Assembly (NCBI GenBank): GCA_002696035.1 | Contig: NZQV01000024.1 | Coordinates: forward strand, 1 to 64,000 | DNA: 64,000 bases | Origin: Balneola sp. | Lineage (GTDB): Bacteria > Bacteroidota > Rhodothermia > Balneolales > Balneolaceae | Reading direction: 5' to 3' | Part shown: positions 52,129 to 57,062 of the stretch, one piece after another | Layout of the letters: each line of letters begins with the position of its first letter | Numbering within the stretch: the stretch's first letter is position 1 | Translations under genes and position numbers: made by a program | The notes under the pieces: generated by a model | The model's database searches: none | What the model saw: only the letters and a program-made list of their open reading frames with translations | What the model was told of the DNA's origin: nothing

Positions 52129-53481
52129 ATGAATATCGACCTGATTCGTAAATACAACGTTCCCGGCCCCCGCTATACCAGTTATCCAACGGTTCCATAT
52201 TGGAGTAAAGAGGGGATCAACCCTAAAGAATGGAAATCAACTTTAACTCGCGCTTTTCAGGAAAGCCGGGATGAGGGTATTTCCTTATATATACACCTTC
52301 CGTTTTGTGAAAGCCTGTGCACCTTTTGCGGATGCCATAAAAAGATCACCAAGCGGCATGAGGTGGAGGATCCATACATCAAAACCGTGCTGAAAGAATG
52401 GAAATTATATACTGAGTTACTTCCCGGTACTCCCAAGATCAAAGAAATTCATTTGGGGGGAGGAACACCTACTTTTTTCAGTACAGGAAATTTGGAAAGG
52501 CTGATCGAGGGAGTTTTATCAAAGGCTGAACTTGCTGAGAATTATGGATTCAGTTTTGAAGGCCATCCAAATAATACCACTAAAGAGCATTTGCAGACTC
52601 TGTATGATCTTGGATTCCGGCGGGTGTCCTACGGCGTTCAGGATTATGATCCCAAAGTGCAGCTTGCCATCAACCGTATTCAACCCTTTGAGAACGTGAA
52701 GCGGGTACACGACTGGTCAAAAGAGATCGGTTACACTTCGATAAATCACGATCTGGTTTTTGGGCTGCCACATCAGAATTTGGAGGGTATTGAGAATACC
52801 ATAAACAAGACCAATGAATTGCGGCCGGATCGTATCGCTTTCTACAGTTATGCCCATGTACCGTGGATGAAGGGCAATGGTCAGCGTGGATTCAATGAAG
52901 CCGACATCCCCAAAGATGATGAAAAGCGTGCCCTGTATGAATTGGGCAAGCGGATGTTCTATGATCAGGATTATGTGGAAATTGGGATGGATCATTTTGC
53001 CCTGAAGTCCGATTCTCTTTACCAGGCCATGCAAAACGGAACCCTTCATCGGAATTTCATGGGCTATACGGCCGGTGCTACCAAAGTGATGATCGGGCTG
53101 GGAATGTCGGCTATCAGTGATAGCTGGTATAGCTTTGCACAGAACGAAAAGGATCTGAAGGATTATGAAGCGCGCGTTGAAGCAGGTAAACTCCCTGTAT
53201 TTCGCGGACACCTTTTGGATCATTCCGACCTAATGATCCGCCGGCAAATTCTGAACATTATGTGCAGGTTCGAAACGGAATGGGAAGGAAGCGATCAGGA
53301 TTTTCGTGAGATCAAAGATCGGTTATCAGGGCTGGAAGAAGACGGTCTGGTCGAAATAGCAGGACGCAAAGTCTCAGTCACGGAAAAGGGGATCCCTTTT
53401 GTGCGAAATGCGTGTATGGCCTTTGATATGAAGCTGCATGAGCGCACGCCGGAGAAACCTACGTTTTCGAAAACAGTATGA
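52129..53481 (+). CDS. hemN: Oxygen-independent coproporphyrinogen III oxidase
   Basis: 450-aa radical-SAM enzyme that converts coproporphyrinogen III to protoporphyrinogen IX without oxygen. The 4Fe-4S site is CESLCTFCGC (near 60-69). HLGGGTPTF (near 106-114) and GVQDYDPKVQLAINRIQ (near 174-190) are HemN signatures, and YSYAHVPWMKGNGQRGF (near 240-256) distinguishes true HemN from HemW. Together with the neighbouring RIC and Rrf2 genes this suggests a low-oxygen or NO-linked gene group. Confidence 0.95.
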   Translation: MNIDLIRKYNVPGPRYTSYPTVPYWSKEGINPKEWKSTLTRAFQESRDEGISLYIHLPFCESLCTFCGCHKKITKRHEVEDPYIKTVLKEWKLYTELLPGTPKIKEIHLGGGTPTFFSTGNLERLIEGVLSKAELAENYGFSFEGHPNNTTKEHLQTLYDLGFRRVSYGVQDYDPKVQLAINRIQPFENVKRVHDWSKEIGYTSINHDLVFGLPHQNLEGIENTINKTNELRPDRIAFYSYAHVPWMKGNGQRGFNEADIPKDDEKRALYELGKRMFYDQDYVEIGMDHFALKSDSLYQAMQNGTLHRNFMGYTAGATKVMIGLGMSAISDSWYSFAQNEKDLKDYEARVEAGKLPVFRGHLLDHSDLMIRRQILNIMCRFETEWEGSDQDFREIKDRLSGLEEDGLVEIAGRKVSVTEKGIPFVRNACMAFDMKLHERTPEKPTFSKTV

Positions 53482-53556: not shown

Positions 53557-53579
53557 AAGACAAATTACTCTTAAATATT
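53557..53579 (+). promoter_or_regulatory. Candidate Rrf2 operator upstream of its own gene
   Basis: AAAAGACAAATTACTCTTAA is an imperfect inverted repeat (AAGA...TCTT) ending about 12 bp before the ATG. The same AAAGACAAA half appears upstream of the RIC gene and of the 12-TM gene. Confidence 0.45.
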
Positions 53580-53586
53580 TCAACTG

Positions 53587-54036
53587 ATGCTCTTATCTAA
53601 ATCTTGTGTGTATGGACTTCGAGCTGCCCTTTACCTGGCAGCTAAGAAAAATGGAGAATATCATTCTTTGCGGGAGATGAGTGAAGAACTGGAAATATCT
53701 TTTCACTTTCTCACCAAAATTTTACAGCAGCTTACCGCAGATGGGTTGATGGAGTCCTACAAAGGACCAAATGGGGGCGTCCGGCTTTCCAGGAAAGGGG
53801 GAAATGCCACGTTATTTGATATGGTAATTGCCATTGATGGACCGGGATTGTTTACGCAATGCGCACTGGGTTTGCCCGGGTGTGGATCGCAGGAACCTTG
53901 TCCGCTGCACGAGAGCTGGGTGGATACCCGTAGTTCCATCGAAAATATGTTGAAGAAAACTTCACTGACCAAGATCGCTGAAGAAGGAAAGGAAAAACAT
54001 TTCAGACTTACTGCAGATGGCCAGTTTAGCTGGTAA
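53587..54036 (+). CDS. Rrf2-family transcriptional regulator (NsrR/IscR-like)
   Basis: 149-aa winged-helix regulator. The helix-turn-helix is at about 20-60 (LREMSEELEISFHFLTKILQ) and the wing is at YKGPNGGVRLSRKG. The Fe-S ligand region has three cysteines near 91, 98 and 104 (CALGLPGCGSQEPC), the spacing of Fe-S-sensing members. NsrR-type proteins sense NO and IscR-type sense Fe-S status; the adjacent RIC gene favours NO. It likely represses itself, ric and the membrane gene group through the AAAGACAAA sites. Confidence 0.88.
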   Translation: MLLSKSCVYGLRAALYLAAKKNGEYHSLREMSEELEISFHFLTKILQQLTADGLMESYKGPNGGVRLSRKGGNATLFDMVIAIDGPGLFTQCALGLPGCGSQEPCPLHESWVDTRSSIENMLKKTSLTKIAEEGKEKHFRLTADGQFSW

Positions 54037-54074: not shown

Positions 54075-54090
54075 AAGACAAAATAGTCTT
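54075..54090 (+). promoter_or_regulatory. Candidate Rrf2 operator upstream of ric
   Basis: AAGAC-AAAATA-GTCTT is a perfect 5-bp inverted repeat with a 6-bp centre, 18 bp before the ATG. Confidence 0.55.
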
Positions 54091-54108: not shown

Positions 54109-54804
54109 ATGCACGCATTATCACAAAAACCGGTTGGCGAAATAGTAGCCGAAGATTACCGAACAGCACAGGTGTTGCGATCTTATGGATTGGATTTCTG
54201 TTGTGGAGGAGGAAGAACCCTGGAGAAGGCTTGCTCTTCCAAAAAGATTGATATAGAACAAATTATCACCGAGCTGGAAGCGCTGAATGCATCGGATAAT
54301 ACAGGCGATAATTATAACGAATGGGCACTCGATTTCCTCGCCGATTACATCGTAAACAACCATCACAGCTATGTTCGAAAAATGTTGCCGGAACTGAATT
54401 TCTATGCAGAAAAAGTAGCACGAGTGCATGGGCAGCGACATCCGGAACTGTTGGATATCCTGCAAAATGTACGCGTACTCAGCGAAGAAATGATCGGTCA
54501 TCTGGAAAAAGAAGAAGTCGAATTGTTTCCACAGGTCAAGGATCTGGTTCAGAACAGCGTAAAAGGTGAAGTGAAGGATTCTATAGTGGAAGCCCTGGAA
54601 GAGGAGCATGACAAAGCCGGTTCATTGATGGAGAAGATCGAAGAACTGACAAATGGTTTCAATCCACCTGAAGATGCTTGTGCATCTTACCGCGTACTTT
54701 TCCAGAACCTGGAAGGATTTCAGCAAGACTTGCACAAACACGTACATCTGGAAAACAACATTCTGTTTCCTAAAGCGCTGAAATTTGAAGCCTCACTAAA
54801 TTGA
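54109..54804 (+). CDS. ric: RIC/YtfE-type iron-sulfur cluster repair di-iron protein
   Basis: 231-aa protein of the ScdA/YtfE family that repairs Fe-S clusters damaged by NO or oxidants. The N-terminal DUF542 domain has VGEIVAEDYRTAQVLRSYGLDFCCGGGRTLEKAC (residues 9-42) with paired cysteines. The hemerythrin-like domain has di-iron ligands in NNHHSYVRKMLPEL (near 84-97), VHGQRHPEL (near 105), HLEKEEVELFPQV, EEEHDKAG-like EEHDKAGSLM, and HVHLENNILFP at the end. It follows the Rrf2 gene by 72 bp. Confidence 0.95.
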   Translation: MHALSQKPVGEIVAEDYRTAQVLRSYGLDFCCGGGRTLEKACSSKKIDIEQIITELEALNASDNTGDNYNEWALDFLADYIVNNHHSYVRKMLPELNFYAEKVARVHGQRHPELLDILQNVRVLSEEMIGHLEKEEVELFPQVKDLVQNSVKGEVKDSIVEALEEEHDKAGSLMEKIEELTNGFNPPEDACASYRVLFQNLEGFQQDLHKHVHLENNILFPKALKFEASLN

Positions 54805-54938: not shown

Positions 54939-56147
54939 ATGAAACTGCTGGTCAAAGATTCGGGGATCTGGCAATGGGCTCTGTTCAGCTTTTTGCTGGC
55001 GGGCTTAGCCGGATTTCTATATCGCATGGGATTTATTGTAGCGCTGCCGTACGAGATCAGCCTTGAGAACGTACGTCATGCCCATTCGCACCTCATGTTT
55101 TTCTGCTGGGCGGGCTTGCTCCCCATGTATCTCATAAAGCTGGATACCATTCCCGGCTACCACGCTGCTTTTGGTGCCAGGCTCATGAAGGGATCACTCT
55201 ATTTTTCTCTGTTATTCGGACTGCTTTCATTTCCATCATTCTTCTTGTGGGGATATGCACCGGTAGCCATCGGAGCCGCTAATATTCCTGTTTCAGCGAT
55301 CATTTCCGGTTTGGTGATGATAGGCTGGTACGGCTTTATGGCAGGATATCTCATCACCAGAAAGTACAAGCGGGATTTTGTGCCCAATACCTGGTTTGAA
55401 GGTGCCATGCTCATGCTATTTATCAGTTCGCTGGGAGCGTGGGGCGTAGGTTTTACTGAATTTATTTCCATCGGCGGACCAATGTTCGGCAAAGCATTGA
55501 CGCATTTCTTCCTCGCGGTTTTTGTTGAAGGGTGGGTCCTTTTAGTTCTGATGGGATTGATCGCTAAATCATTGGATCTGAAGGATGAAGATTTTGCCCT
55601 GTCGCCTGGAATTCTGGTCGGACTTATAGCTATAGGTGCACCGTTGACATTTCCGTATGGCATTCCGGAATCTTTTGTAAGTATAAACATGTCGGTTGCA
55701 GCGCGAATGGGAGGGGTACTTATCGCAGAAGGCATTCTCTTGTACGTCTACTCTGTGTACAGAACGCGCAAACTTTCCCTGGGGATCTGGGTATGGCCTT
55801 TGATCTTATTGGCTCTGAAAGCAGCTATGCAACTAGCAGCCTCTCTTTCTCCGGCTGACCTGTGGCTATCAGATCACGGAATTCGGGTTTTTTATCTTCA
55901 TGTAACACTGTTAGGGGCATTGACCCTTGGCCTGGCTGCCTTCCTGAGCCGAGAGGAAAATATATCACCCGTGTATTTTTATGGGGTAGTACTTTCAATT
56001 TTGATGTTGTTGTTCAGCCTGATCTTTCTCACCAGCCTCTGGCCTGAGCCAATAAGCGGAGTATGGATCTACACCGCCCTTGCGGTTACGGCAATTTTTC
56101 CCATCTTTGCCATGACTCTTTTTTGGATAAAACTGAGAAAGAGTTAA
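54939..56147 (+). CDS. 12-TM membrane protein of unknown function (NnrS/heme-copper-like)
   Basis: 402-aa protein that is almost wholly membrane helices (about 12). A histidine-rich segment NVRHAHSHLMFFCWAGLLP (near 44-62) at the start of TM2 and further His (ALTHFFLAVF, YLHVTLLG) look like possible heme or metal ligands, as in NnrS and heme-copper oxidase relatives. Position next to an Rrf2 regulator and RIC suggests a role in NO handling or heme delivery. I do not recognise a named family with confidence. A 7-bp tandem array lies just after its stop. Confidence 0.6.
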   Translation: MKLLVKDSGIWQWALFSFLLAGLAGFLYRMGFIVALPYEISLENVRHAHSHLMFFCWAGLLPMYLIKLDTIPGYHAAFGARLMKGSLYFSLLFGLLSFPSFFLWGYAPVAIGAANIPVSAIISGLVMIGWYGFMAGYLITRKYKRDFVPNTWFEGAMLMLFISSLGAWGVGFTEFISIGGPMFGKALTHFFLAVFVEGWVLLVLMGLIAKSLDLKDEDFALSPGILVGLIAIGAPLTFPYGIPESFVSINMSVAARMGGVLIAEGILLYVYSVYRTRKLSLGIWVWPLILLALKAAMQLAASLSPADLWLSDHGIRVFYLHVTLLGALTLGLAAFLSREENISPVYFYGVVLSILMLLFSLIFLTSLWPEPISGVWIYTALAVTAIFPIFAMTLFWIKLRKS

Positions 56148-56153
56148 CATTCC

Positions 56154-56216
56154 AAAGCACAAAGCACAAAGCACAAAGCACAAAGCACAAAGCACAAAGC
56201 ACAAAGCACAAAGCAC
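56154..56216. repeat. 7-bp tandem array (AAAGCAC x9)
   Basis: Nine perfect AAAGCAC heptamers fill the gap between two genes and end 4 bp before the next ATG, so the array covers the whole ribosome-binding region. Confidence 0.95.
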
Positions 56217-56220
56217 ATTC

Positions 56221-56658
56221 ATGCCTTTAATTACAAGAATATTTATAAAAACCGGGATGATCTACTTTGTGATCGCCCTGTTGCTGGGGATCGCACAACA
56301 GATAAGTGCCTTTATGTTTCCAAATATTACCGCATTGTTCTGGCATTCACTTATGCTTGGCTGGATCACGCAGATCATCATAGGCGTTTCTGTATGGATG
56401 TTTCCGGGCAGGGTGAAAGAGGAATCTTTTCAGTATCAAAAATGGTCGTGGCTAGCCTATGGTTTTCTGAATGTTGGGTTGATACTCAGGCTTATTGCTG
56501 AGCCATTTGTGAATACGTCGGAGCTTATGATCTGGAAATACCTGTTGGTAATTTCAGCAAGTACTCAATTCATTGGAATTGCATGTTATGTGATCGAGAT
56601 CTGGCCGCGTGTACTTTCAAAAAAACAGCGCCGTAAACAAAGAAAAGCCACCCGCTGA
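56221..56658 (+). CDS. 4-TM protein resembling a fragment of heme-copper oxidase subunit I
   Basis: 145-aa protein with four helices (about 8-28, 38-62, 78-97, 108-130) and a basic tail (KKQRRKQRKATR). TALFWHSLMLGWITQIIIGVSVWMFPG (near 38-62) recalls the part of cbb3/NorB catalytic subunits that carries a heme-ligand His followed by GW..Q...G. It is far too short to be an oxidase, so it may bind a single heme or assist assembly. It overlaps the next, related gene by 1 bp (TGATG). Confidence 0.62.
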   Translation: MPLITRIFIKTGMIYFVIALLLGIAQQISAFMFPNITALFWHSLMLGWITQIIIGVSVWMFPGRVKEESFQYQKWSWLAYGFLNVGLILRLIAEPFVNTSELMIWKYLLVISASTQFIGIACYVIEIWPRVLSKKQRRKQRKATR

Positions 56659-57062
56659 TGCCACTTATTTCGAGATTGATGATACGGTTATCGCTGGTTT
56701 ATTTTGTACTAGGAGCTGGCATTGGCGCTCTAATGCTCATCAACAAAGCCTTTCTGATCAGTCCGATGATCTGGTTCATTTTCCCTATTCACATCGAATT
56801 TCTGATCTTTGGGTGGATCATTCAATTTACGCTGGGCGTGGCATATTGGATCTTGCCCCGATTTCTGGAATCAAAAGGAAGGGGAAACCCAAAGCTGGCT
56901 TGGCTAATGGTTGTCTTTCTAAACCTGGGAATCTTATCCGTTGCTTTTGCTCCATATGGACTTGGACAAAATATAGGGCTTGCTGGCAGAATATTCGAAA
57001 CGCTGGCGGTGATCCTATTCATAACCCTGCACTGGAAACGAGTAGTAACCTACAATAAATAA
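56658..57062 (+). CDS. Second 4-TM protein, paralogue of the preceding gene
   Basis: 134-aa protein sharing the MPLI(T/S)R start, the FV.GAGIG/YFVIALLLG first helix and the signature FPIHIEFLIFGWIIQFTLGVAYWILPRF (near 41-68) with its neighbour. Here too a His precedes GW..Q...GV..W..P. The two probably arose by tandem duplication and may form a heterodimer. Together with the 12-TM gene they look like one operon under Rrf2 control; function unknown. Confidence 0.62.
   Translation: MPLISRLMIRLSLVYFVLGAGIGALMLINKAFLISPMIWFIFPIHIEFLIFGWIIQFTLGVAYWILPRFLESKGRGNPKLAWLMVVFLNLGILSVAFAPYGLGQNIGLAGRIFETLAVILFITLHWKRVVTYNK

Follow-up and report, generated by a model that had tools for sequence, protein, structure and literature searches.

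We wondered what three membrane proteins encoded downstream of a regulator gene and a repair gene might do in Balneola sp., a salt-loving bacterium. The analysed stretch of DNA, referred to as the window, comprises positions 1 to 64,000 of contig NZQV01000024.1. Six of its genes lie in one direction, on the + strand. HemN (52129-53481) is followed by an Rrf2-family regulator (53587-54036) and by the di-iron Fe-S cluster repair protein RIC, also called ScdA or YtfE (54109-54804). Then come a 402 aa protein with twelve transmembrane helices (12-TM, 54939-56147) and two four-helix proteins, here designated smA (56221-56658, 145 aa) and smB (56658-57062, 134 aa). According to the ORF list, the start of smB overlaps the stop of smA by one base. 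A first-pass annotation, made from the sequence alone, had placed a 12-TM protein and a pair of 4-TM paralogues after Rrf2 and RIC, and the open reading frames are indeed located where it had put them. The gap between the 12-TM gene and smA holds a perfect 7-base repeat, CAAAGCA, in 9.3 copies (56153-56217).

The predicted model of the 12-TM protein (mean pLDDT 90.7, built from 37 sequences) displays the complete fold of heme-copper oxidase (HCO) subunit I. Its top Foldseek matches are cbb3 CcoN (E 4.3e-6) and NorB (E 5.1e-6). VIA-align superposes the model on cbb3 8smr_E with Z 33.4 and rmsd 2.9 A over 382 residues, and on NorB 4xyd_A with Z 32.1. All twelve predicted helices, arranged in three repeats, superpose on subunit I, and identity in the structural alignments with cbb3 and NorB amounts to 8 to 14%. 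The protein has no Pfam match better than E 0.19, its sequence profile finds no PDB chain at E up to 5, and comparison with a COX1-family profile (25 sequences) yields P 63%. Kinship to heme-copper oxidases, proposed in the first-pass annotation, is thus borne out by the fold.

Oxidases bind their low-spin heme through a His of helix II and, in the HxH motif of helix X, through the second His; the first His of this motif is the ligand of the high-spin heme. The 12-TM protein shares the low-spin positions with cbb3 CcoN and NorB. H49 on helix II and H321 on helix X, both assigned by motif spacing, occur in all 45 aligned rows. Helix II carries two further conserved residues, H51 (45/45) and H47 (44/45), and, judged by sequence, any of the three may bind heme; on helix VI, H189 is nearly invariant (43/45). 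The protein differs from cbb3 CcoN and NorB in its length of about 400 aa and in that the ligands of the binuclear centre are not conserved. The set of three CuB/FeB His (one on helix VI, two on helix VII) and a helix-X high-spin His, characteristic of an oxidase or NO reductase, is not complete. No conserved His is found on helix VII in the 45 rows, and the place of the high-spin ligand, position 319, is taken by Tyr in 40 rows, Phe in four and Trp in one, the window protein having Tyr319. The conserved His thus seem to fit a low-spin heme only, the catalytic site apparently not being kept. We regard the protein as a putative three-repeat member of the HCO fold that would hold low-spin heme between H49 and H321, with Tyr319 at the high-spin ligand place.

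The two small proteins are paralogous, with 35% identity and E 4e-8 in a search of their own genome and with 99.9% probability (E 3e-32) in profile-profile comparison. Against Pfam COX1, smA reaches E 1.6e-4, below cut-off, and smB E 8.2e-8 (32 bits against a cut-off of 34.8); smB genes of relatives pass this cut-off, for example with 39.9 and 40.7 bits. A profile built from the same 25 diverse COX1-family sequences matches smA in repeat 1 (P 96%) and repeat 3 (P 89%) and smB likewise (P 95% and 67%), while control proteins remain at 0.2% (NosY), 6.0% (CtaA) and 0.1% (Nramp). This profile replaced an aa3-only one (29 sequences), which gave no significant match. Searches of PDB chains with the smA and smB profiles returned nothing at E up to 1. 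The model of smB consists of four helices (pLDDT 91.5). Foldseek used with it is weak on its own, the best hit being a ba3 oxidase at E 0.2, and VIA aligns all 134 residues with residues 12-180 of human subunit I (Z 14.3, rmsd 2.6). MAPEG-type proteins reach Z about 10 with the same model and are possibly distant kin. Each protein thus corresponds to a single four-helix repeat of the HCO fold, by COX1 sequence profile in either case and by predicted structure for smB. Compared with repeat 1 of the 12-TM protein, smA scores P 68% and smB only 9%. Folds unrelated to oxidases, named beforehand as an outcome that would speak against the idea, were obtained neither for the 12-TM protein nor for smB. 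Long frames in loci L116 and L121 that resembled smA-smB fusions were dropped; smA is encoded there in another, overlapping frame.

Do the small proteins keep heme ligands? Both contain the sequence H..GW..Q...GV..W..P, as had been pointed out in the first-pass annotation, although their His do not stand in equivalent places. The distance from His to Pro is 20 residues in smA and 22 in smB, which puts the two His in different registers. Among the 25 COX1-family sequences, none of which lacks the helix-II His or either His of HxH, the first HxH His precedes Pro by 22 residues in 19. From the helix-II His, the spacing is 22 residues in seven sequences, 23 in four, 21 in one and 26 in one, with no Pro in range in the remaining 12. 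Because the helix-II spacing is mixed, the assignment of registers rests on profile alignment. There, H45 of smB is aligned with the His of helix II and also with the first His of HxH, and H42 of smA, two residues further, with the second HxH His. Both are invariant in non-redundant rows (H42 in 76/76, H45 in 74/74), so that the shared motif is no chance resemblance and conservation of His across homologues, the lack of which had been named in advance as refuting, is clearly observed. The opposite register is occupied by Tyr or Phe in 62 of 76 smA rows and by Glu or Asp in 70 of 74 smB rows, smB position 47 being mostly acidic. Outside lone loci, the first His is absent from 72 of 73 smA rows, with L124 as the exception; the second is absent from 72 of 74 smB rows, and only L121 and L124 have both in spite of being paired. 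Three loci that encode smA without smB (L203-L205) carry both His of HxH. All three come from one part of a phylum and are probably related, so this pattern may count only once.

Each paralog keeps the opposite His of HxH and lone smA proteins keep both. This complementary pattern would suit a heme shared by smA and smB, smB providing the register of the helix-II low-spin ligand and smA that of the helix-X low-spin ligand. Sharing of a heme between separate 4-TM units is plausible. The first-pass annotation had imagined two halves with a heme between them. The HCO fold consists of three repeats with four helices each, which makes a trimer, or an assembly that includes the 12-TM protein, seem more natural. 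Most likely, smA and smB would come together as repeats of an oxidase-like ring, with a bis-His heme at the smB/smA interface. A bolder proposal, which we advance tentatively and hold to be rather less probable than the general reading given below, is that of a split membrane cytochrome b. Here, unlinked four-helix oxidase repeats would form a ring in which the helix-II-type His of smB and the helix-X-type His of smA bind one low-spin heme, with the 12-TM protein as the fused counterpart. The single-repeat stage from which HCOs may have grown would then still be active as an NO-stress complex.

Proteins of this kind are not without precedent. In 2014, Pei et al. reportedly named single-repeat and three-repeat homologues of HCOs HCO-homology (HCOH) proteins. 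These are said to have few conserved His, to occur in denitrification context and to have been proposed to form trimers, and NnrS is reportedly included in the class as well. NnrS has twelve transmembrane helices. With single four-helix repeat proteins and a 12-TM three-repeat protein of HCO fold, the window proteins fit this HCOH class, so their kind is already known, though it has received little study. The notion of a new system, raised in the first-pass annotation, accordingly stands only in part: oxidase homologues with one or three repeats and a link to denitrification had reportedly been described before. The loci analysed here show the two His registers divided between paired genes, and RIC, Rrf2 and truncated globin as neighbours. 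Two papers citing Pei et al. 2014 mention four-helix proteins that as a trimer resemble the core of an oxidase (PMC4602095) and heme-copper oxidase relatives in denitrification and detoxification (PMC11218638). No account of the 12-TM, smA or smB genes is contained in the portions available to us of these two papers or of PMC1274295, PMC9246220 and PMC4642740. NnrS is described as a membrane protein containing heme and copper that, like dnrN/RIC, belongs to the core of NsrR regulons (Rodionov 2005, PMC1274295). The NnrS of Vibrio cholerae shields the iron pool from dinitrosyl complexes and does not remove NO (PMC9246220).

The window proteins themselves do not match the NnrS family (PF05940). 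None of the three has a Pfam match to it at E up to 1, and the profile works on locus L124, where NnrS, 12-TM, smA and smB are all encoded together. The same profile finds no match in 57 relatives, the genome of the window included, and detects NnrS in the genome of L124. DUF2871 (PF11070), a small family, resembles the lone smA relative of L205 weakly (E 2e-4) and a Chloroflexota 12-TM relative (E 0.007), in both cases below the curated cut-off, and matches none of the window proteins. The L205 protein exceeds the COX1 cut-off with 41.8 bits and matches NnrS (positions 259-365) below cut-off. Two further proteins were seen beside related genes. A 404-aa protein of Chloroflexota, adjacent to the 12-TM gene (L105:12398-13612 -, L112:11910-13121 -), reads like three smA/smB-type repeats, of which repeat 1 matches smA with P 96% and repeat 3 smB with P 69% (three sequences). 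A 421-aa protein (L204:6235-7500 +) lies just over the Pfam COX1 cut-off with 35.6 bits and adjoins lone smA within a nos cluster.

We next consider the two genes preceding the membrane proteins. RIC is assigned by Pfam and by NCBIfam TIGR03652 (E 1.2e-73, 247.5 bits against a cut-off of 204.7). The regulator matches Pfam Rrf2 (E 3.3e-28) and passes the rrf2_super cut-off of NCBIfam. It is far from the NsrR equivalog (48.1 bits, cut-off 182) and from the IscR equivalog, which it matches better (67.8 bits, cut-off 207.55), so it can be called NsrR-like by context only. Both genes are preceded by a palindrome of the form AAGAC-N6-GTCTT, which we take as a candidate operator. The copy at 53557-53572, AAGACAAATTACTCTT, has one mismatch and ends 14 bases before the Rrf2 start; that at 54075-54090, AAGACAAAATAGTCTT, ends 18 bases before the RIC start and is the sole perfect match in the window. 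Five matches in the whole window against 2.08 expected are not striking, as 4 of 100 shuffles reach this number, and the case for the palindrome therefore rests on position and recurrence. In the window and its relatives, with at most one mismatch allowed and expectations taken from 5 dinucleotide shuffles of each upstream region, it occurs upstream of 15 of 27 Rrf2 genes (expected 0.0), 8 of 33 RIC genes (0.2) and 4 of 43 12-TM genes (0.0). It was found upstream of none of 32 smA, 20 HemN and 15 NosZ genes, and upstream of 1 of 22 NosD genes and 28 of 522 other genes in these loci. Because of its recurrence before Rrf2, RIC and some 12-TM genes, the palindrome suggests that the Rrf2 protein controls RIC as well as its own gene and, in part of the genomes, also 12-TM. 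The 12-TM gene of the window has no such site upstream at up to one mismatch and could be read through from RIC.

To which genes is the set linked elsewhere? The 12-TM protein was detected in 57 of 146 relatives and smB in 68, or in 62 when six weak or broken matches are left out. At least two matches to the smB profile are present in 59 of these 62, the second usually being the adjacent smA. Among 53 named loci found by smB alignment, 52 contain an smA frame over 60 bits; the other, L095, has a stretch of 22 bits. A separate smB locus, L189, lies at a contig start and likewise lacks a scored smA. In the named scan, smA-smB pairs occur in Balneolaceae, a Rhodothermia bacterium, Anaerolineae and other Chloroflexota, Calditrichota, Gemmatimonadales, a WOR-3 bacterium and 'Candidatus Kutchimonas denitrificans'. 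12-TM and smB co-occur in 42 genomes (Fisher p 1e-9, a value too optimistic for related genomes), 12-TM being without smB in 15 of 57 and smB without 12-TM in 20 of 62. In four sister genomes (L186, L193-L195), the order Rrf2-RIC-c607-smA-smB is intact and the 12-TM gene lies elsewhere.

Neighbours on the same strand at 47 non-redundant 12-TM loci include at least 21 RIC genes, 21 smA-smB pairs and 11 truncated globins, with NosZ or all of NosD, NosF and NosY at no fewer than 22 loci; these are lower bounds, the stretches being of different length. RIC lies within 6 kb of 24 of 31 smB loci in Balneolaceae and near kin, and of just 2 of 42 outside them. In this latter group, a protein type of 368 aa (c1) is found within 6 kb of 13 of 42 smB loci. 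The last third of c1 matches smA (P 96.5%), and some c1 loci also have a 12-TM gene; repeat-repeat hhalign values within c1 and c7 are left out, being partly due to an 11-residue overlap of segments. A conserved protein of 600-612 aa, for which Pfam and NCBIfam gave nothing and PDB nothing significant, is encoded between RIC and 12-TM or smA in several loci (L033:5273-7096 +, L042, L044, L186, L194 and others); the window has no gene for it between RIC and 12-TM. Taken together, RIC, Rrf2 with the shared palindrome, Nos genes and truncated globin point to NO handling, in agreement with the NO-stress setting suggested at first.

The same neighbourhoods have to be weighed for another explanation, in which the heme b proteins form an electron-transfer module. 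They would oxidise quinol and feed periplasmic acceptors such as N2O reductase, cytochrome c'-like protein and cupredoxins, as a branch of denitrification rather than a protection against NO. Many relatives have smA-smB and the 12-TM gene within nos clusters, and NosZ accompanies 12-TM in 48 of 57 genomes and smB in 52 of 62, a strong co-occurrence, the p-values of which are again too optimistic for related genomes. Fodinibius-type loci have the order 12-TM, truncated globin, cytochrome c'-like, smA, smB, the third of these being matched by Pfam with E 8e-5 to 1e-3, below cut-off, and in L103 a Crp-type regulator and a protein judged cupredoxin-like by eye precede smA-smB. However, nine of the 57 and ten of the 62 genomes, among them that of the window, gave no NosZ match, and one bis-His heme per unit offers no obvious path across the membrane. 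We consider this explanation unlikely, though it is the strongest of the rivals.

Less probable still is turnover of NO itself, by a reduced NO reductase, as the first-pass annotation had thought possible, or by a NO dioxygenase complex. The heme would act in it with a non-classical second site or with a truncated globin. Of 47 loci, 10 have such a globin gene after 12-TM, and one more, L187, has it elsewhere; in one of the 10, from Fodinibius halophilus (L043:7250-8878 -, same contig as L076), globin and 12-TM are encoded in one frame. This fusion was found in one genome only, other loci having separate adjacent genes, and the window has no globin gene after its 12-TM gene. COX1-family matches in the genome of the window were two proteins of oxidase length and, besides these, smA and smB; no further subunit of NOR type and no NrfA was found there. 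A missed gene is possible, as the assembly is 97% complete. These results agree with the genome of Gracilimonas tropica, which according to PMC4642740 encodes DnrN and a nirK homologue but no reductase for nitrate, NO or N2O. What speaks against turnover of NO is the lack of a conserved helix-VII His and the Tyr, Phe or Trp at the high-spin ligand place in all 45 rows, which make a NO reductase unlikely, together with the single invariant His of each small protein. As for NO sources at home, the genome of the window encodes a copper protein with a length of about 380 aa, which stays below the NirK cut-off and was not accepted as NirK. In three sister genomes a NirK-like copper protein, also below cut-off, lies about 3 kb from smA-smB. 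One copper protein, L194:10649-11776 +, has two multicopper-oxidase domains, is weakly NirK-like and lies about 2.5 kb from smA-smB; it is similarly placed in two further sister genomes.

A role in heme or copper handling for the assembly of an oxidase or NosZ would suit HemN upstream in the window and CtaA (heme A synthase), the scored gene directly before 12-TM in 11 of 47 loci, but is quite improbable, with no match to an assembly-factor family in Pfam or NCBIfam and with RIC and the other neighbours pointing to NO and not to assembly.

We return to the reading that we favour, with a confidence somewhat better than even: the 12-TM protein, smA and smB would be membrane heme b proteins of HCOH type that have lost the oxygen- or NO-reducing binuclear centre, are coregulated with RIC and act like NnrS. 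Binding of heme by all three is probable. The adjacent Rrf2 regulator would switch on the set together with RIC, and the set would limit the damage that NO does to iron, possibly passing electrons to soluble NO-handling heme proteins. Given the genes described for Gracilimonas tropica, it is plausible that Gracilimonas has a source of NO and no known sink for it.

Iron proteins are damaged by NO, and where neither NnrS nor an NO reductase is recognised, bacteria need other means to cope with it. The gene set described here represents a testable candidate for such a means in Balneolaceae. A heme shared by smA and smB would moreover make the pair a modern example of the single-repeat block from which respiratory oxidases may have arisen.
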